A DNA stretch of 64,000 nucleotides, taken from positions 128,619 through 192,618 of the forward strand of contig NZ_JADNRL010000037.1 in assembly GCF_015595025.1 (NCBI RefSeq). Direction: 5' to 3'. Of the stretch, positions 29,561 to 39,558 are shown one piece after another (the stretch's first letter is position 1; every line of letters starts with the position of its first letter). The notes under the pieces were generated by a model. The model worked only from the letters and a program-made list of their open reading frames with translations, did not search any database and was not told where the DNA came from. This stretch comes from Halomonas sp. KAO. GTDB lineage: Bacteria; Pseudomonadota; Gammaproteobacteria; Pseudomonadales; Halomonadaceae. The position numbers were made by a program, and so were the translations under genes.

Positions 29561-30313
29561 GTGAGTGAGTTGATCTACTGGCTGGACCTGGCGGGAGTCA
29601 TTGTCTTTGCGTTGTCGGGGGTGGTGCTGGCCTGCCGCAAGAGCATGGACCCCTTCGGCATGCTGGTGCTGGCCGCCGTGACCGGTATCGGTGGAGGCAC
29701 CCTGCGCGACCTCGTGCTCGGTGTACGGCCGGTATTCTGGGTCACCGACCCGACCTACCTGTGGGTCATCCTGGCCACGGTGGCCCTCGCCATCCTCGGG
29801 TTCCACTATATCCACCGCCTCTCGCGCGGCTTCCTGCCGGTGGCCGATGCCTTCGGGCTGGCGCTGTTCGTGGTGATCGGTGCCCACAAGGCGCTCCAGA
29901 TGGGGACGTCGGGGCTGGTGGCCGTACTGATGGGGATGATGACCGGGGTGGCCGGCGGCATGGTGCGCGATGTGCTGGCGCGCCGTGTGCCCATGGTGCT
30001 GCGTGAGGAGATCTACGCCACCGCGGCGATCGCCGGTGGAACCGCCTATGTGAGTCTGGATGCGTTCGGGGCTCCCGGCCCCCTGGCCATTGCCCTGTCG
30101 CTGCTGACGACTCTCGGCATCCGTCTGGCCGCCATTCACTGGCATCTGGCACTGCCGACCTTCGCCTGGGTGGAGATCCCTAGAACTCCCGAGCCATCTC
30201 CGCCGGTCGCCAAGGGCGAGCCGCCGGCACCGCCTGCCGAGCCACCACGGCCCAAGGTAAGAGTCCGCATGATTCGTCCCGAGCAGTCACGGCGCAGGAA
30301 GAATCGCTCATGA
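29561..30313 (+). CDS. TRIC-family (UPF0126) cation channel-like membrane protein
   Basis: 250-residue inner-membrane protein with seven hydrophobic segments in two repeats, each carrying a glycine-rich hinge: GIGGGTLRDLVLG and GVAGGMVRDVLA. This is the bacterial trimeric intracellular cation channel family (E. coli YadS/YicG type), possibly a potassium or glycine conduit. Unlike compact family members it has a C-terminal tail of about 50 residues, proline-rich then strongly basic (ending RRRKNRS). GTG 29561 has GAGGG upstream. It overlaps the downstream lipoprotein gene by ATGA. Confidence 0.85.
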   Translation: MSELIYWLDLAGVIVFALSGVVLACRKSMDPFGMLVLAAVTGIGGGTLRDLVLGVRPVFWVTDPTYLWVILATVALAILGFHYIHRLSRGFLPVADAFGLALFVVIGAHKALQMGTSGLVAVLMGMMTGVAGGMVRDVLARRVPMVLREEIYATAAIAGGTAYVSLDAFGAPGPLAIALSLLTTLGIRLAAIHWHLALPTFAWVEIPRTPEPSPPVAKGEPPAPPAEPPRPKVRVRMIRPEQSRRRKNRS

Positions 30314-31383
30314 GCCTGCCCCTGCCCAGCCTCCACGCGCGGCAGCTGTCATGGCTTGCCCTCTGTGTGCTGGCGCTGCAGCTTTCGGCCTGTGCCGTGC
30401 AGCAGCCCGATGCCGGCCCGGCCGAACGCCACCGGCTGGCGGCGGAGCGAATCCGGGCGACCTATGAAGCCGTGCTCCCCGAACTCTCCGGCGGCAAGCG
30501 CCGCCACTACGCCCAGCGCCTCTACCGAGTGACCGGCGAGGAGCGTTACCTGCCGGCCAACCGTGAGTATATGCTGCACCTGGCGGGGCGCCTGGAGGCC
30601 GAGATTGCCGAGCTCGCAGTGCCAGGGCAGATCGAACGGCTCGCCAGAGAGAGCGTCGAGGGGTACCCGCGGCGCACCGCAAAACAGCGTGCCCGGGCCG
30701 AGATGTTCACCCGGTGGGGCGAGTTCGCCTATGCCAAGGGGCTGCTGTTCCGACTGGTGCAGGCGCACTACCACGGCATGCTGGACGAGGTTCCCGGCCA
30801 TGAGCGGGCGCTGGACTATCTGGAAGATCTAGCCTGGGAGGCGTTCCTGACGGACGCTGAAGTGCTGGAGGTCTATGCCGCCCAGGTCGCCAATCAGGTG
30901 CACTTCCTTCACCAGCTCGGCGTGATGGATCTGCGCCGGGAGGTGGAGGCCGCCTTCCGGCGGCGCTATCCCCCGGACACTCTGGCGCTCCTGTCGACCG
31001 CCGAGTATCGCAACTGGCTCTACGGGCTGACACATTTCGTCATTGGCGCCAGCCGTTACTACCAGCAGGAGGTGGATGCCGAGGCGTATGCCTGGATACT
31101 CGAAGCCTTCTCGGAACAGTCCGAGCGGATCATGCGCGATGCCACCGAGGATATCCAGGCGGAGGTGGCGCTGAGCTTCCTGCTCGCGGGCCGCGAGGGG
31201 CACCCTCTTGTGGACCGGGTACGCGATGCCCTGGCCGCGGCGGTGGACCCCGCCAGCGGCATGATTCCCTCGCCGGACGGCAGCACCGACCTGGAGGGGG
31301 GCGAGCACCGCAATGTGCTGGCGATCATGGTGCTTGGGTGGCAAGGGCGACTGTATACGGGGCCTGCCTGGCCGGCCCTCTAA
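30310..31383 (+). CDS. DUF3541-like lipoprotein
   Basis: 357-residue predicted lipoprotein: hydrophobic signal, then LSAC with Cys28. The rest is helical and soluble (RIRATYEAVLPELSGGKRRHYAQRLYRVTG, MFTRWGEFAYAKGLLFRLVQAHYHG, TDLEGGEHRNVLAIMVL), resembling the DUF3541 family of Vibrio and relatives from memory. Function unknown. It is translationally coupled to the TRIC channel gene, so it may be its envelope partner. The gene ends 2 bp before low-identity IS remnants begin. Confidence 0.7.
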   Translation: MSLPLPSLHARQLSWLALCVLALQLSACAVQQPDAGPAERHRLAAERIRATYEAVLPELSGGKRRHYAQRLYRVTGEERYLPANREYMLHLAGRLEAEIAELAVPGQIERLARESVEGYPRRTAKQRARAEMFTRWGEFAYAKGLLFRLVQAHYHGMLDEVPGHERALDYLEDLAWEAFLTDAEVLEVYAAQVANQVHFLHQLGVMDLRREVEAAFRRRYPPDTLALLSTAEYRNWLYGLTHFVIGASRYYQQEVDAEAYAWILEAFSEQSERIMRDATEDIQAEVALSFLLAGREGHPLVDRVRDALAAAVDPASGMIPSPDGSTDLEGGEHRNVLAIMVLGWQGRLYTGPAWPAL

Positions 31384-31393
31384 AGATTGGTTC

Positions 31394-31580
31394 TGGTTTG
31401 CCTCCCAGGCCCGGGTAGGCCATCAGTTGACGGGGCGAGCCGAAGAGGGTGATGTCCAGTTCGGCGAGCATCGTCATCGCCGTGATCGGACTCATGCCGT
31501 GCGTCGGCCTCAGCGCCTCGGCCACTGGGGCAGCGACCAACCAGGCGGGCACCTGTTGCTTGAATTCAGGGCTTGCAGGC
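31394..31580 (-). pseudogene. IS110-family transposase remnant
   Basis: In one minus-strand frame, the peptide PVAEALRPTHGMSPITAMTM continues LAELDITLFGSPRQLMAYPGL, a clear match to the C-terminal transposase_20 region of IS110/IS1111 elements (LRxLxGVGPITALTLLAEIG...FxSPRQLMAYLGL). The catalytic N-terminal DEDD domain and the remaining C-terminus are absent. No inverted repeats are seen. It lies at the junction between GC-rich DNA and the AT-richer acyltransferase gene. Confidence 0.75.
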
Positions 31581-31586
31581 GAAGCC

Positions 31587-32432
31587 CTACACTTCCTGGT
31601 AAAGGCCATGGGCCCTGACCTTGTCGCGATCGTGAAGGCTAAGCTGCTGCTCCAGGCAGCTTTTTATTCGCGTATACAGAGGTTTGATGCTGTCTGGGAG
31701 GTCGCTTTCTGCCTGCTTCTGATCGATATAATACGCCGCTCTCAATCCGCAGTGATCAATGGTTTCTCCCGCTTTTTGAAAACGAAGCCCCGAGAGTTTT
31801 AGCAATCTGTTAAATCTCGGCTCCATCATGGCAAAGACATGTCGGCGTCCTGAAATTCCTACGATGGCGGTTGCGGCAAGAAATAGACTCAAGCTTATTA
31901 ATGCAGTCTGATTTCCGTTGTTTTTAGAGACAATATTGCTTATATCCTCGCCTATTGTTCCCGTGGGGGGGGAGGTTTTTTTTCTGAAGCCTGGATGAAC
32001 GGCAAGCCTGGAAACCTCGCAAAGCTGGTTTTTTGGATAAAAGGCTGGATGAAAGTCGGAGCCTTCTAAGCTGTCTCCACTGTACTCTTCAAGTGGCAGG
32101 TTGTTAACCGGATGGTTGGGGTTGTTGTCTATGGTGACCACCCTCAAGCAGCCTGCATCTATATTGCTTTCCTTGTGTTGAAGCAGGCATAGTATAGAGT
32201 TATGGTCATACGCGTCCTTTTCTATTGGGCTGTTTGTTTTCTCTCCTATATCATAGTGAAGTTCCTCATGGAAAACCGCATGACGGAGAGAGAAGGCACG
32301 CTCTTTTTGCGAGGCAGTATGAGCTATTATTAAGCTAAAGTTATCGAAGAGCTGGTCGGGGTTGATGCCGATACCGCTACCAGAGGAGTGGGACATGACC
32401 ATTTTCTGGTTTTTTGTTGTGACACCTTTCAC
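31587..32432 (-). CDS. GNAT-like acyltransferase resembling the PEP-CTERM/exosortase-associated family
   Basis: 281 residues. The pattern is that of the exosortase-associated acyltransferase family (TIGR03694 type, related to N-acyl amino acid and acyl-homoserine lactone synthases): LRHAVFHEELHY, EKDAYDHNSILCLLQH, GCLRVV, CEVSRLAVHPGFR, VFAMMEPRFNRLLKLSGLRF and LRAAYYID. It would transfer an acyl chain to an amine, but the product is unknown and no exosortase gene is in the window. The GTG start overlaps the upstream GGDEF/EAL stop by 4 nt with AGGAG upstream. Codon and base composition are markedly AT-richer than neighbours, suggesting acquisition. Confidence 0.78.
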   Translation of the reverse strand: MKGVTTKNQKMVMSHSSGSGIGINPDQLFDNFSLIIAHTASQKERAFSLRHAVFHEELHYDIGEKTNSPIEKDAYDHNSILCLLQHKESNIDAGCLRVVTIDNNPNHPVNNLPLEEYSGDSLEGSDFHPAFYPKNQLCEVSRLAVHPGFRKKTSPPTGTIGEDISNIVSKNNGNQTALISLSLFLAATAIVGISGRRHVFAMMEPRFNRLLKLSGLRFQKAGETIDHCGLRAAYYIDQKQAESDLPDSIKPLYTRIKSCLEQQLSLHDRDKVRAHGLYQEV

Positions 32433-35293
32433 CGACTATCTCCTTTTGGCTCGCCCTGCGAGGCATGCTGTGTGGTCTTGAATGTTTCTCTAAGCAGTGA
32501 TGGCCTGCCCAGGTGGAAGCCTTGTCCGTAGGAGATGCCGTAGGACTTCAGTATCGGCAGGAGAGCCTCCTGGTCGACGAATTCGGCGATAGCCTGCTTG
32601 CCGAACCCGGCGGCAATATCGGCAATGGCCTGGACGATGACTCGGCTCTCCTGGCTGACCAGGAGGCTGCGAATGAAAGACCCGTCGATCTTGATATAGT
32701 CCACCGGCAGTTGCCCCAGGTAGTGGAAGCTGCTGAACCCTACCCCGAAGTCATCCAGGGCGGTTCGACACCCGAGGTCGCGTAGTGCCTGAAGGACACC
32801 ACGTGCCGTGGAAAAGTCGGTCACGGCGGCGGTCTCGGTGACCTCCAGGATAAGATAATGAGGGTCGGCTCCGCTGGCGGCCAGTTCCTCGGCCAGATAC
32901 TGCTTCAGCCCAACATCGTGCAACGACTGTCCGGACAGATTGACCGCCAGAGAGATGCCTTGTTCCTGCAGTTGGTTGAGCGCCCGCAGGCTGTGGCGCA
33001 GTACCCAGCGATCGATCTTCACGATCTGGCCGCTGCGCTCCGCGATAGGAATGAACGCCGCAGGGGAGATCAGGCTACCGTCGGCATCGCGCATGCGCAG
33101 TAGAACCTCGTAGTGTTTTACGTCGTGATCCTCCAGCCGCATGATCGGTTGTACCATCAGTTCGAAGCTGTCCTCTGCCAGGGCACTACGCACACACTCG
33201 ACCCAGTGCACCCGCTCCTGCAATTCGTCCTTGGCATTCTCGGAGTGCGAGAGCAGGTGCCACTGCTGGACGCCACTCTCCTTGGCCTTGTACATGGCCA
33301 CGTCGGCGCTGGCCATCATGTCGGCTGGTGTCGTGCCGTGCGTGGGATACAGGGCAATGCCGATGCTGGCGGTCACCCGATGGCGTCGTCCTGTGGCAGT
33401 GAATCCCAGGTTATCGAGCAGCTGGTCGATGTGCTGGGCAACCTGAATCGCCTGGTCCGCATCGGCATGCTCCAGCAGTAGCGAGAACTCGTCGCCTCCC
33501 AGGCGGGCGATAGCCCCGCGATGCCCCAGGTTTCGCAAGAGAGTGTTGGCCACCTCGCGCAGCAGACGGTCACCGACATGGTGGCCGCTCAGCTCGTTGA
33601 CCTCCTTGAACTGGTCGAGATCCAGTAGCAGCACTGCACCTTGCGACTCGCGCGAGAGCGCCATCTGTAGGGCGTCCTGGAAGTAGCGTCGGTTATAGAG
33701 CTTGGTCAGGGGGTCGCGTTCGGCCAGCCAGGTCAGGCGCGCCTCTGCGGCCTTGCGCTTGGTGATATCGAGCCCCACCGAGATTCGTGACTTGCCCTCG
33801 TCGCCGCCCGAGGGCAGGGGGGCATGGTACCAGGCGATGGTGTACGGACGCTGCCCGGAGATATGTAGGCTCCGCTCTTCCTGCTGCGGAATATCGACGT
33901 TGTTTACCGGCGAGGGGCGACCGGCCTCGAACAAGTCGACGAAATGGCGACCCAGGAGAGAGGCGTCGTCGAGGTTGAGCATTGTTCGAGTGTAATCGTT
34001 GACCAGGGTGATCCGCCCCCGGCTGTCCTGGGCAATGATGAAGACACGGGCGGTGTCCAGCAGGCTGTTGACGAAGTCTCGTTCCTTGGCCAGCTCATCG
34101 ACGCGTTGTGCCAATTGGTCGCCGCGCTCCTGAACCTCCACTTCAAGTATCTCGAGCTGGCGAGAGAGTGCCAGGGTGGTGCCTTCCAGCACGTCGATTT
34201 CGTCTGGTAGCCGATAGTGGGTCGCGGGAATCGCAGCTCTGACATCGTCGAAGCAGCCGTTGGCAAGCGTTGGGAGTACGCCGGCGATACGACGCAGGCG
34301 TGCCATGGGGCGCAGCAGGATCAGCAGCAGCATCAGTTCGGCGGCCAGCCAGCCGATCAGGCCGGCTCCCATCAGGGTATGTGTGTCCTGGTTGATGGCT
34401 TGGATCTGCGAGGAGATATCGGAGATCAGCAGGAAGTAGCCGTTACCGCCACCGCTGGTGTCCTCGTTCATTCTTACCGCACTAAGCCCGAGGTCTCGCC
34501 CCCGGTCCTGCAGCTGCACAGGGTGCTGAAGCAGGTCACTGATGGGGCTGAGGTGCGAGGCCCGCTGCAGCAGGGGCAGGCTCTCTTTCTGGCGTGTCAG
34601 CGCCAACAGGTAACCGTCCCAGGGCGCAAGCTTGCGCCCCTCGGTCAGCTCCTGATCCTCCCGCGGGCCCGTGACCAGCAAGGCAACCTCGGCGTTGGAG
34701 ACCTCCCTGATCTGGCGGGTCACATCGGCCAGCGAGCGGGAGAGCACGACCAGGCCGACGCTTTTACCCTCCACCAGTATCGGAACGGCGGCTACCTGTT
34801 GGCAGTTCCTCGTGCAACTAAGCCGTGTGAGGGGCATTTCCGTGCTTATGACTTGTTGTACCCAGGCATGGATCGGAGGGCTGTCCTCTTCTCGACTGGA
34901 GCCCCAGTGACCCAGGAGCCGCCCTTGGGTGTCCGCGACCCATATCTCGTCTACGCCAGCTTCGAGTTGCAGGGTTGGCCACTGGGAGGCCAACGCCCTG
35001 TCGATATCGTCTGTATTGCCAGCCTCGAGCGAGAGGCCCAGGTGCGGTGTGGCCGCGGTCAACCCTGCCAGCTGGCGAAGATTCTCGGCTGAGCGCTGGA
35101 GGGCGAGGCGAATCATGCGCTGCTGGCGTTCATGATCCTCGTTGCGGCTCTCCTGGAACTGATTCGTCAGGTTCTGATGTCCAAGCCAGGTGAACAGCAC
35201 CACGAGGCAGACCAGCAATAGACTGCTCAGGGCAATGACGCGCCATGTCAGACTGAGTCGATGACGGAGCTGCAGGGATGAAGGAACAGTCAT
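32429..35293 (-). CDS. Membrane-bound GGDEF/EAL c-di-GMP enzyme with PAS domain
   Basis: 954 residues. A membrane helix at about 18-38, a periplasmic sensor of about 260 residues, a second helix near 307-330, a coiled linker (EVQERGDQLAQRVDELAKE), a PAS domain (about 405-515), then GGDEF with an intact ARLGGDEFSLLLE near residue 598 and no RxxD I-site. The C-terminal EAL domain reads EVLLR in place of EALLR and retains the NLSGQS, EVTET, DDFGVGFSS, IKIDGSFI, AEFVD and GQGFHLGRP motifs, so phosphodiesterase activity is plausible. It is third in an operon with a PstS-like protein, a porin and an acyltransferase; the periplasmic part may sense what they deliver. Confidence 0.92.
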   Translation of the reverse strand: MTVPSSLQLRHRLSLTWRVIALSSLLLVCLVVLFTWLGHQNLTNQFQESRNEDHERQQRMIRLALQRSAENLRQLAGLTAATPHLGLSLEAGNTDDIDRALASQWPTLQLEAGVDEIWVADTQGRLLGHWGSSREEDSPPIHAWVQQVISTEMPLTRLSCTRNCQQVAAVPILVEGKSVGLVVLSRSLADVTRQIREVSNAEVALLVTGPREDQELTEGRKLAPWDGYLLALTRQKESLPLLQRASHLSPISDLLQHPVQLQDRGRDLGLSAVRMNEDTSGGGNGYFLLISDISSQIQAINQDTHTLMGAGLIGWLAAELMLLLILLRPMARLRRIAGVLPTLANGCFDDVRAAIPATHYRLPDEIDVLEGTTLALSRQLEILEVEVQERGDQLAQRVDELAKERDFVNSLLDTARVFIIAQDSRGRITLVNDYTRTMLNLDDASLLGRHFVDLFEAGRPSPVNNVDIPQQEERSLHISGQRPYTIAWYHAPLPSGGDEGKSRISVGLDITKRKAAEARLTWLAERDPLTKLYNRRYFQDALQMALSRESQGAVLLLDLDQFKEVNELSGHHVGDRLLREVANTLLRNLGHRGAIARLGGDEFSLLLEHADADQAIQVAQHIDQLLDNLGFTATGRRHRVTASIGIALYPTHGTTPADMMASADVAMYKAKESGVQQWHLLSHSENAKDELQERVHWVECVRSALAEDSFELMVQPIMRLEDHDVKHYEVLLRMRDADGSLISPAAFIPIAERSGQIVKIDRWVLRHSLRALNQLQEQGISLAVNLSGQSLHDVGLKQYLAEELAASGADPHYLILEVTETAAVTDFSTARGVLQALRDLGCRTALDDFGVGFSSFHYLGQLPVDYIKIDGSFIRSLLVSQESRVIVQAIADIAAGFGKQAIAEFVDQEALLPILKSYGISYGQGFHLGRPSLLRETFKTTQHASQGEPKGDSR

Positions 35294-35326
35294 CTCTATG
35301 GAGTCCAGGTCTGGAGTATGGGGTCG

Positions 35327-36529
35327 TCAGAAACGCAACGAGAATTGAAACAGTAGCATGCTCCAGTAGCGCTCTGTTTTTGAGCTATCCGGGTTGTCCT
35401 GAAGTGGTAACCATCCAGTACCATCAATGTGATGATATTCGGCCGCGAGAAGGGCGCGTGGATTCACGTTCCATTGCAAGCCTATGGTGATGTCTTCGGC
35501 AAATCGTGAGTGTGCGGGGCCTAGGCCCTGCTCTTCGTATTTCTTTCCCGATCGGTCGTCTTTGTCTCGGATCAGCCTGTCGTAACGAAGTAGCCACTGC
35601 CAGTCATCATGGAAGCGCTTTGAATATTGAACATACCAACTTTCACCAGTGAGGTCCGATTCGCGCATTGAGCCACTACCTTTAAGCTCAAGGTTGCGAA
35701 TCGCATATTCACTAGTTACTGCCCAGCTCCCCGTGTCATATTGTAAGGATAATATCCACGGCTGGAAGTTAAGTTTTCCGCTGCTAGGACCTAGGTTGAT
35801 ATCAAGGTTTACGTCTGCAGTGCTTACCGCTGCGTTAAAACGACCGTTGCTATGTTCGTAAAGTATCTGCGCAATCGATGATGTGTCTCCATTTACTTCA
35901 CTGTTAAGGCTGGGCGGGAAGAGTTGCGTGCCCAAATCTCGAGTGGTGGGTGTGCCCACGCCGCCTTTAAATCGGACTACGCCGCTATCGAAGCGTTCTT
36001 CAGCGTAAATGCTGGCGCCATCTGCCGAGAGGCCCAGGGATCGGGTTCGGTCGAAGTAGATGGACTGAGGAAGCAGAATGCTCGGGCGAGTAAACGCCAC
36101 ATCACGCGTCTGGTTATAGAAGCCGAAGGGGTTCTTGAAACGACCGACCTGTACGCCGAAAGTGCGCTGCTGGTTCGACAGCACCTGATAGTCGATAATA
36201 CCGTAGTCCAGGACGGGGCGGGCGTCGTCCCCGTCTCCACCGGCGCGTCGACTCAGTGCCTGTGCGGCAATTAATACATTCTCATGGGGACGGAGCGAGA
36301 CGTTGGCGCCGATCTCGGTGAATTCAAAACTCCCCTCGCCTTCGCTGCTGGGGCCGAAGAAGTTGTTGTCATCGGTGATCACCAGAGCCTGACTCAGAAA
36401 ACCATGCATCTGCAGAGTGTCCAGCACGCCATTGTCGGCCAGTGCCTGTCCCGACAGGCTCGTCAGGGCCGTCACCAGCAGAGGCGCGAGGTGTCTTTCA
36501 ATCCATCGAAATGACTTGGACACGTTCAT
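35327..36529 (-). CDS. Outer-membrane beta-barrel (porin-like) protein
   Basis: 400 residues with a signal peptide cleaved after GQALA (about residue 31). The mature part alternates polar and hydrophobic residues, has many aromatic girdle residues and ends in FQFSLRF, a terminal phenylalanine typical of Bam-assembled barrels. FGVQVGRFKNPFGFYNQTRD is a porin-like strand. Substrate unknown. ATG 36529 has GGAG upstream and overlaps the 3' end of the PstS-like gene by 32 bp. It lies 33 nt upstream of the GGDEF/EAL gene. Confidence 0.8.
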   Translation of the reverse strand: MNVSKSFRWIERHLAPLLVTALTSLSGQALADNGVLDTLQMHGFLSQALVITDDNNFFGPSSEGEGSFEFTEIGANVSLRPHENVLIAAQALSRRAGGDGDDARPVLDYGIIDYQVLSNQQRTFGVQVGRFKNPFGFYNQTRDVAFTRPSILLPQSIYFDRTRSLGLSADGASIYAEERFDSGVVRFKGGVGTPTTRDLGTQLFPPSLNSEVNGDTSSIAQILYEHSNGRFNAAVSTADVNLDINLGPSSGKLNFQPWILSLQYDTGSWAVTSEYAIRNLELKGSGSMRESDLTGESWYVQYSKRFHDDWQWLLRYDRLIRDKDDRSGKKYEEQGLGPAHSRFAEDITIGLQWNVNPRALLAAEYHHIDGTGWLPLQDNPDSSKTERYWSMLLFQFSLRF

Positions 36530-36929
36530 CCAGGTACTCCCTTTCCAGATAGCCTATTGCGCCGGGGGTGGTGGCGATACGCTCGACCATCTCGGCCTGG
36601 TGTCTCACACGATCCGGCGCCTGGCCGGTACCGGAGAAGACCATGCGGTCCCACGCCAGCTGCAGTTGATGGGGATAGACGGTCAGGCGCTGCTTGACGA
36701 AGCGCTCATGGACCGGATGGTTGTTGGGCAGCACGAACACCCGTACAGCCTGGCCATCAGGCCAGGTGCGCTGACGCATGGCGAAGATGCCTCGCGTGGT
36801 ATCCCGTGTGAGATGCTGGGTGGTGACATCGCCGTGGGCAACCAGCAGGATCGTCTGCTCGCTGGCAATGGCTCTCCCTCCCGCCAGGGCAATCAGACAG
36901 AACAGCAGGGCAGCCTTCAGCCACGCCAT
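36498..36929 (-). CDS. Short PstS-like periplasmic binding protein
   Basis: 143 residues with an N-terminal signal peptide (hydrophobic stretch ending GGRAIAS). The body resembles the C-lobe and hinge of phosphate-type substrate-binding proteins: TRGIFAMRQRTWPDG, VRVFVLPNNHPVHERFVKQ, WDRMVFSGTGQAPDRV and TTPGAIGYLEREYL. It is about half the length of PstS, and no ABC permease or ATPase genes are adjacent, so a sensory role is more likely than uptake. It heads the four-gene operon that includes the GGDEF/EAL protein. Confidence 0.8.
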   Translation of the reverse strand: MAWLKAALLFCLIALAGGRAIASEQTILLVAHGDVTTQHLTRDTTRGIFAMRQRTWPDGQAVRVFVLPNNHPVHERFVKQRLTVYPHQLQLAWDRMVFSGTGQAPDRVRHQAEMVERIATTPGAIGYLEREYLDERVQVISMD

Positions 36930-38850: not shown

Positions 38851-39558
38851 ATGTTTCTCGATGAATTTCATACGCTGGCAGGGGACCGTCTCACCATCAC
38901 GGCGGAGCAGGCCAGTCGATTCGCCAAGGGAGTCGCCGGCGATTACAACCCGATTCATAACCCGGAGGCACGCCGCTTCTGTGTACCCGGGGACCTGCTG
39001 TTCGCCCTGGTGCTGGCGCGTTTTGGCCTCTCACAGCGCATGGAGTTTCGTTTCCTCAGCATGGTGGGTGACGGCGTTCCACTGGTTTTCCAGGAGCATG
39101 CCGACGGACAGATTCGCGTTTGTGACGACGCCGGCAAGTCCTATCTGGAGGTCTCACGCAGCGGGGCGACCACCCACGACGAGGCAATAGTGGAGGCCTT
39201 CACCCGCTGCTATGTCTCGTTCTCGGGCAAGAACTTTCCGCACTACCTCAAGCCGCTGATGGAAGAGAAGGGCGTGATGTTCAATCCGCGCCGGCCGCTG
39301 GTGATCTACGACAGCATGGGCTTCTGTCTGGAGCGCCTCGAGGGTCTGACGCCATTACTCGAGCTGCTCGACTCCTCGCTGGAGGTCAATGGCAAGCGTG
39401 GCGACACCCTGCTCGAGTTCAGCATCCAGTCCGAAGGCGAGCAGGTGGGGACAGGCTCCAAGAAGCTGGTGGTCAGTGGTCTGTGTGACTACGACGCCGA
39501 GGCCATGGACGAGATCGTCGCCGAGTTCTATCGCCTCAAGGCCGCCTACGAGGCTTGA
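38851..39558 (+). CDS. DUF3581 family protein
   Basis: 235-residue soluble protein of a widely distributed gammaproteobacterial family of unknown function. The phrases FAKGVAGDYNPIHNPEARRFCVPGDLL and YVSFSGKNFPHYLKPLMEEKG are family hallmarks; GDYNPIHN resembles the catalytic hydration segment of hot-dog fold MaoC-like enzymes, hinting at a hot-dog fold. This is inference. It is convergent with arfB. Confidence 0.82.
   Translation: MFLDEFHTLAGDRLTITAEQASRFAKGVAGDYNPIHNPEARRFCVPGDLLFALVLARFGLSQRMEFRFLSMVGDGVPLVFQEHADGQIRVCDDAGKSYLEVSRSGATTHDEAIVEAFTRCYVSFSGKNFPHYLKPLMEEKGVMFNPRRPLVIYDSMGFCLERLEGLTPLLELLDSSLEVNGKRGDTLLEFSIQSEGEQVGTGSKKLVVSGLCDYDAEAMDEIVAEFYRLKAAYEA

Follow-up and report, generated by a model that had tools for sequence, protein, structure and literature searches.

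We identified in Halomonas a four-gene operon in which two polymorphic islands switch type together. One island is the entire gene of a predicted cytosolic N-acyltransferase (ACT); the other is the middle of a predicted outer-membrane porin (POR). The gene of a PstS-like protein (SBP) and the 2.9-kb gene between the islands, which encodes a dCache-PAS-GGDEF-EAL protein (DGC), are conserved as the islands change. The reading we favor, with a probability of about 0.48, is that of a polymorphic envelope signaling operon, in which ACT would make an N-acyl signal that is recognized by the cognate half of the porin and read out by SBP and DGC as c-di-GMP.

In the window, the 64,000-nucleotide stretch of Halomonas sp. 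KAO DNA analyzed here, the operon lies on the minus strand, as do all of its features given below, and runs from SBP (36498..36929, 143 aa) through POR (35327..36529, 400 aa) and DGC (32429..35293, 954 aa) to ACT (31587..32432, 281 aa). SBP and POR overlap by 32 bp, POR and DGC are separated by 33 bp, and DGC and ACT overlap by 4 bp, exactly as a preliminary description of this DNA had claimed for its four minus-strand open reading frames. The 954-residue GGDEF/EAL protein of that description was likewise confirmed, and profile matches above cut-off revealed dCache_3 and PAS domains besides. The G+C content is ~58% over 32-36 kb, versus 62-71% in most of the window. A promoter scan was uninformative (3 sites, with 2.1 expected), and all 8 terminator-like sites were on the strand opposite to the operon. 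Directly downstream of ACT is a fragment of an IS110-family transposase (31325-31609, minus strand; PF02371, 22.9 bits, cut-off 21.3). Genes for a DUF3541 protein (30310-31383, plus strand) and a DUF3581 protein (38851-39558, plus strand) flank the region in many relatives.

SBP has an N-terminal signal-like segment and about 120 mature residues, and is predicted to be periplasmic. It matches PBP_like_2 (PF12849) weakly (20.1 bits, below the cut-off of 27), weakly matches the PstS chains 4ecf and 4exl, and is probably too short for a two-lobe binding protein; 44 columns of its alignment are invariant in 26 rows. DGC is a membrane-anchored protein in which all four domains score above cut-off: PAS, a dCache_3 periplasmic sensor domain (residues 62-296, 34406..35110; 83.1 bits, cut-off 25.7), GGDEF (residues 525-675, 33269..33721) and EAL (residues 701-931, 32501..33193). 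The RLGGDEF motif is invariant in 24 DGC rows, as are E729, N785, E817, D847-D848, K868 and E904, which we take to be the EAL catalytic residues. DGC keeps both catalytic motifs, as a bifunctional GGDEF-EAL c-di-GMP enzyme would, and this anatomy would fit an envelope ligand that sets c-di-GMP.

The sequence of POR matched Porin_4 weakly (24.5, cut-off 27), and a PDB sequence search gave weak matches (best E 0.013; FapF 0.03). Its AlphaFold model (pLDDT 77) is a barrel of 16 strands, for which Foldseek returned VhChiP (E 2.8e-13), OmpT, Omp32 and OprP; the L3 region (residues 139-166) was modeled at pLDDT <50.

The AlphaFold model of ACT (pLDDT 85) has the fold of AHL synthases and FeeM, the closest PDB structures by Foldseek being LasI (E 1.6e-9), BjaI, TofI, MesI and FeeM. 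ACT resembles the LuxI-type synthases (LasI, BjaI, TofI) in these top matches, in a PF00765 match above the gathering score (37.7 bits versus 24) and in conserved charged residues. Invariant in ACT are R50, E71-x-D73-x-x-D76, R97 and E139-x-S141-R142, which we take to be the typical AHL-synthase motif. Unlike those enzymes, ACT falls far below the equivalog cut-offs (19.1 and 18.6 bits against the TraI models, cut-offs 250 and 292), and there is no LuxR-type gene in the operon; its sequence alignment to a solved AHL synthase spans part of the first half only. Among 42 aligned members, PF13444 matched all, Autoind_synth 24 and FeeM 19 (E up to 0.001), and an ornithine N-acyltransferase model matched 18. 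ACT should move an acyl chain onto the amino group of a small molecule. The window gene carries homopolymer runs at 31958-31974 (on the plus strand, eight consecutive G and a T tract), and by raw count a run of at least 7 occurs in 33 of 100 ACT genes; such runs could be phase-variable tracts.

The preliminary description had called ACT "exosortase-type". As a family label the term holds: ACT scores 163.3 bits against TIGR03694 (cut-off 111.95), and this model matches 42 of 42 aligned members at E<0.001. A link of N-acyl amino acid synthases to exosortase genes has been reported (Craig et al. 2011, as cited in PMC7293339), and ACT resembles these PEP-CTERM/exosortase-associated enzymes in passing the family cut-off and in having FeeM among its best folds. 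It differs from them in being fixed in a c-di-GMP operon of a host family without an exosortase match: TIGR02602 matched none of 131 family genomes and, in a search that gave matches in 3 of 6 outgroups of the order, none of 13 genomes of the genus. The name therefore misleads, and we rejected an exosortase partner for ACT. A tie between ACT and an exosortase system, for which one could also cite the ~10-11 kb that separate the two genes in two genomes outside the family (G093 and G090), is already largely refuted by these counts; there is no sorting gene inside the operon either, and we regard the tie as extremely improbable.

Conservation of the operon was assessed in three samples. ACT was present in 75 of the 90 genomes of the genus searched, our own included (one match in 73, two partial matches in 2), and its surroundings were examined in all 74 other positive genomes. 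The order SBP-POR-DGC-ACT was complete in 70 of these 74 loci, and the remaining four (L049, L093, L099 and L106) are truncated by the end of their contig. Therefore, the four-gene operon is real and not a product of chance. POR was absent from 14 of the 15 ACT-negative congeneric genomes as well, the exception (G063) being 72% complete. Among the family members from other genera listed from 390 genomes of the order, 12 of 14 had both SBP and ACT, and all 12 loci showed the four-gene order, with DGC split into two ORFs in L141 and L142. A search with the window porin found 80 named loci from Halomonas, Billgrantia, Vreelandella, Onishia and Litchfieldella; 74 have the four genes complete, five (L242, L243, L261, L264 and L276) are cut by contig ends, and L231 is the sole true exception. 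The preliminary description had staked its operon on the four genes being neighbors elsewhere, and in each of these samples they are.

Finer features of the layout also recur. The 32-bp overlap of SBP and POR was found in 66 of the 69 congeneric loci with both ends definable, and 74/74 complete named loci have an in-frame POR start codon at precisely this position. The flanks vary more than the operon; NhaD, for example, was not found upstream in many Billgrantia-type loci. Parts of the operon are missing or broken in several loci. In L231 (9679-13728, Vreelandella nigrificans), SBP and POR are kept, DGC stops after GGDEF, and EAL and ACT are missing; the contig continues for ~1.9 kb past the shortened DGC, with unrelated genes there. 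The porin is broken in L084 and L085 (genomes G004 and G005), which keep SBP, DGC and ACT, and that of L085 lacks about residues 101-309. In L058, L070, L101, L141 and L142, DGC is split into at least two pieces, which may reflect decay or assembly error. The 70 congeneric loci with the complete order include L084, L085, L058, L070 and L101.

Polymorphism within the operon was analyzed in 100 non-redundant complete operons drawn from 167 sources, in which all parts reached minimum lengths, duplicates with identical ACT and sensor part of DGC (SENS) were removed, and broken operons such as L085 were excluded. Background genes were available in a subset of these: NhaD in 53, DUF3581 in 60 and DUF3541 in 62. 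Of the four proteins, ACT diverges by far the most, with a median distance of 0.57 (versus 0.43-0.47 for SENS and 0.24-0.26 for EAL). Under four choices of background (40 to 60 operons each), the partial rank correlation of ACT distance with POR distance was 0.59-0.65; the corresponding values were -0.11 to 0.20 for SBP, 0.15-0.26 for SENS, 0.24-0.29 for PAS, 0.22-0.30 for GGDEF and 0.21-0.31 for EAL. A sliding window located the signal in the middle of the porin, at residues 172-301 (POR-mid, 35627..36016), with the rest of the barrel forming POR-N and POR-C. Given the DUF3581 distance (n=60), POR-mid and ACT correlated at 0.77, and POR-mid correlated at 0.09 with SBP, 0.14 with SENS, 0.13 with EAL, 0.05 with POR-N and 0.39 with POR-C. 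ACT tracked the other parts weakly (partial correlations of 0.13 with SBP, 0.25 with SENS, 0.27 with EAL and 0.15 with POR-N). Over all 100 operons the correlation between POR-mid and ACT was 0.71 raw and 0.66 given SBP, SENS and EAL; none of 2000 Mantel permutations reached 0.71, the largest value being 0.14. POR-N covaries with SBP (0.74) and SENS (0.72).

Closely related operons show the same pairing. Among 32 disjoint closest pairs, POR-mid had switched in 14 of the 15 in which ACT had switched and in none of the 17 in which it had not (Fisher 3e-8); when pairs were picked for switches instead, POR-mid had switched in all 19 disjoint pairs with switched ACT and in none of 29 disjoint pairs with unswitched ACT. 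The thresholds were first chosen after the distances had been seen and were then varied, and over 15 combinations p ranged from 1.8e-9 to 3.2e-8, with disjoint pairs being only approximately independent. Median distances in the 19 switched pairs were 0.60 for ACT and 0.55 for POR-mid, 0.19 for POR-C, 0.11 for SENS, 0.09 for POR-N, 0.07 for SBP and 0.05 for EAL. DGC was equally close in switched and unswitched pairs (SENS 0.11 versus 0.14; EAL 0.05 in both). The partial correlations with ACT in the 32 pairs were 0.83 for POR-mid, 0.77 for POR-C, 0.52 for POR-N, 0.21 for EAL, 0.10 for SENS and -0.12 for SBP.

The pair L044 and L092 illustrates the pattern: the two differ by 2-5% in SBP, POR-N, SENS and EAL, by 58% in POR-mid and by 62% in ACT. 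At the DNA level, identity is 91-100% along DGC except in the last, mixed window, 50-63% over most of the porin island and 42-59% over most of ACT. Likewise, Vreelandella sedimenti QX-2 (L225) and Vreelandella boliviensis LC1 (L228) are at distances of 0.08 in SENS and 0.04 in EAL, against 0.58 in POR-mid and 0.62 in ACT. Profiles of eight pairs showed the same two islands, the first from about nucleotide 480 to 1100 of the porin gene and fading to its end, the second starting from the end of DGC. In most of these pairs the 2.9-kb DGC gene is about as similar as the upstream flank, L058/L097 being more divergent (69-91%). Similarity resumes right after ACT in six of the eight pairs; in L034/L083 and L033/L060, the sequences past ACT are unrelated as well.

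The matching is imperfect. POR-mid distances below 0.25 went with ACT distances above 0.45 in 22 of 4950 pairs, and the 20 of these listed involve L090, L098, L102 or L103. The converse mismatch was absent, as none of 230 pairs with ACT below 0.4 had POR-mid above 0.45. The window ACT is 0.41-0.43 from those of L223, L228 and L230, yet its POR-mid is 0.52-0.54 away. A nearest-neighbor test that excluded close relatives did not tell the regions apart (median percentiles of 0.021 for POR-mid, 0.022 for EAL, 0.026 for POR-C, 0.04 for POR-N, 0.049 for SENS and 0.065 for SBP), and it is the close pairs and the partial correlations that carry the evidence for pairing.

On the porin model, POR-mid comprises strands 6-12 with loops L4-L6 and begins directly after the conserved loop L3. 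Switching was highest in L4 (0.60), L5 (0.87) and L6 (0.78), which by the usual porin topology would be extracellular. Turns T3 (0.70) and T5 (0.60) likewise gave high values, as did strands 6-12 (0.25-0.54). Loops L1 (0.09), L2 (0.14) and L8 (0.18) were quiet, and L7 stood at 0.35. Strand parity and hydrophobicity gave no consistent answer as to whether the variation faces the lumen or the lipid.

We compared these operons with loci from outside the Halomonas family. Better-scoring SBP matches gave 28 further loci, 27 outside the family and one a second paralogue in G305. The order SBP-POR-GGDEF/EAL was present in 16 of the 28, and homologous parts in the same order make this module a close counterpart of the window operon. 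Four others had SBP and a GGDEF protein of the same type with no porin match; two had SBP-POR with a sensor lacking GGDEF, two had SBP with a shorter GGDEF protein, one was cut and three had SBP alone. ACT occurred in none of the 28, and conversely SBP, POR or the sensor occurred in none of 20 ACT loci from outside the family. The three-gene sensing module is thus widespread in the order and, because module and enzyme occur apart outside the family, ACT appears to have been added to the module and to have become fixed in the Halomonas family. Loci with the module but no ACT, some of them incomplete, come from many families of the order (L153-L175, L281-L291, L294, L295 and L297). Variants include L177 and L180, where SBP is followed by a shorter GGDEF protein and no porin, and L157 and L159, where the protein encoded after SBP and porin is a sensor that lacks GGDEF and may be a kinase. 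We discarded the idea that another gene replaces ACT in these modules: in 14 of the 18 loci examined, the first downstream ORF listed has the opposite orientation. The only recurrence downstream, in L156, L162 and L167 of one family, is a small opposite-strand gene followed by ABC-transporter-like genes. In the available parts of the open-licence literature we found no name for the SBP-porin-GGDEF/EAL module.

The ACT-less module also served as a control. In 13 such operons of one genus, the porin segment is not decoupled: it tracks POR-N (rho 0.75) and DGC (0.79). In the Halomonas family, the same segment correlates at 0.33 with POR-N, 0.33 with SENS and 0.71 with ACT, and random sets of 13 family operons gave 0.01-0.63 (5-95%) for POR-mid versus POR-N. 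The control is indirect, because its genus is more divergent (median 0.40 in the N part and 0.55 in DGC) and few of its pairs are close.

A functional fit between ACT and POR-mid is the best explanation for types that stay matched on either side of a long conserved gene, and a cytosolic enzyme and an outer-membrane barrel would fit each other most simply via a small molecule. The fit need not involve signaling. The porin could be a selective channel for export or uptake of the ACT product, such as a surfactant, a lipid or a nutrient-capturing compound, while SBP and the GGDEF/EAL protein sense something else or an invariant part of it. Such privatized transport would account both for the pairing and for the constancy of SBP and sensor, and the ACT-less modules indicate that SBP, POR and DGC work without ACT. 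FadL, moreover, is reported to be an uptake route for long-chain AHLs in Sinorhizobium (PMC9938287). Left unexplained are the enzyme's place in a sensor operon across the family and the absence of POR from 14 of 15 ACT-negative congeners, and we judge this account somewhat unlikely.

Porins are common phage receptors. Pressure from phages or predators could diversify the exposed half of POR, with ACT altering the cell surface to match and its product having no signaling role; the high switching of L4-L6 is as expected on such an account. However, strands and turns vary as well as loops, L1, L2 and L8 show little switching, and in the control genus without ACT the segment stays coupled to the rest of the porin and to DGC. 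Nor would phage pressure by itself account for a porin that switches together with a cytosolic acyltransferase, and we consider this explanation improbable. In a last alternative, nothing couples the islands functionally: recombination would exchange one large block that extends from POR through ACT, with DGC conserved for other reasons. Larger block exchanges do occur, since L103, the nearest locus to the window by NhaD (0.02) and close to it in SBP (0.06), differs in ACT (0.67), POR-mid (0.58) and SENS (0.48), that is, over window positions 31587-36529; the unrelated DNA downstream of ACT in L034/L083 and L033/L060 points the same way. Yet the intervening DGC diverges no more in the 19 switched pairs than in the unswitched ones, it stays at 91-100% identity apart from its last window in L044/L092 while most of the islands drop to 50-63% and 42-59%, and after background correction SBP (-0.12), SENS (0.10) and EAL (0.21) hardly follow ACT. 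Exchange without coupling is accordingly a poor candidate.

The signaling reading that we prefer would work as follows. ACT would make a type-specific N-acylated small molecule in the cytoplasm, and outside the cell the variable half of the cognate porin would recognize or admit it. The conserved part of the porin, together with the single-domain PstS-like protein, might then pass the message to the periplasmic dCache domain, upon which the GGDEF/EAL protein would shift c-di-GMP. Each allelic type of this ACT/porin-half pair would mark a communication group, comparable to the pherotypes of Gram-positive bacteria. The operon, its conservation, the predicted folds and the pairing of porin-half type with ACT type are observed, and from them we infer the chemistry, the role of the molecule as a signal, the route from POR through SBP to DGC and the direction in which c-di-GMP would shift. 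The covariation of POR-N, SBP and sensor fits a transduction chain from POR through SBP to dCache, without proving it. As SBP and sensor hardly vary with ACT type, they are hardly specificity determinants, so the reading of the signal would have to fall to the porin or depend on a portion of the molecule that the types have in common. The preliminary description had proposed that c-di-GMP controls an acylated product. That order is probably reversed: ACT type tracks the porin and hardly the sensor or GGDEF/EAL (0.2-0.3), and the acylated product is therefore more likely the ligand than the output. Two features sit badly with signaling, namely the retention of DGC and ACT beside a broken porin in L084 and L085, and of SBP and POR without ACT in L231.

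Known systems offer partial parallels. In the ComQXPA pherotypes of Bacillus and in the agr groups, polymorphism affects segments on both the synthase and the receptor side, which vary in concert while the flanks are conserved; in both, the signal is a peptide and the receptor a sensor kinase. Our operon resembles these quorum-sensing loci in its two matched polymorphic segments and conserved surroundings, the porin being the presumed receptor. It differs in that the partner is half of an outer-membrane porin, and in that a conserved c-di-GMP enzyme lies between the islands. Pherotypes have been described as communication groups (available part of PMC4408185). In ScrABC of Vibrio parahaemolyticus, ScrA makes a signal, periplasmic ScrB binds it and the GGDEF-EAL protein ScrC is switched through ScrB (passages of PMC10269520 and PMC9303241); the chemoreceptor-like SscL and SscS are also named as S-signal sensors (PMC9303241, same passages). 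The likeness, which is not homology, is in the types of gene that one operon unites, ACT being a candidate signal enzyme and SBP a candidate periplasmic binder beside the GGDEF-EAL protein. Unlike ACT, with its GNAT/AHL-synthase fold, ScrA is a PLP-dependent aminotransferase, and the passages on ScrABC mention neither a porin nor a matched polymorphism. By analogy, ScrABC may serve as the functional precedent, FadL as a precedent for an outer-membrane protein that handles AHLs (PMC9938287, in the part available) and pherotypes as a precedent for matched polymorphism. Within the open-licence literature, no paper was recognizable by its title and the start of its abstract as treating the operon or the pairing of ACT with POR-mid. 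Polymorphic self-signaling is itself known; new here would be its use of parts not known in that role.

A more specific version, which we hold tentatively and would not put at even odds, is that the operon is a Gram-negative pherotype locus. Half a porin would be the specificity receptor for a secreted N-acyl signal, the matched alleles would be under balancing selection across the Halomonas family, and a periplasmic adaptor with a conserved c-di-GMP enzyme would form the readout, so that signaling would begin at the outer membrane and dispense with a cytoplasmic receptor of the LuxR type.

If the pairing is one of signal and outer-membrane receptor, the operon would be a Gram-negative counterpart of the peptide pherotypes in which a porin determines specificity and c-di-GMP is the direct output, and the exosortase-free members of the TIGR03694 acyltransferases would gain a function. 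The role of the widespread SBP-porin-GGDEF/EAL module becomes testable, with the variable half-barrel marking the place of ligand recognition. Even if no signaling is involved, nature offers here a clear experiment on channel specificity, since half of a porin varies along with a cytosolic acyltransferase throughout a family.
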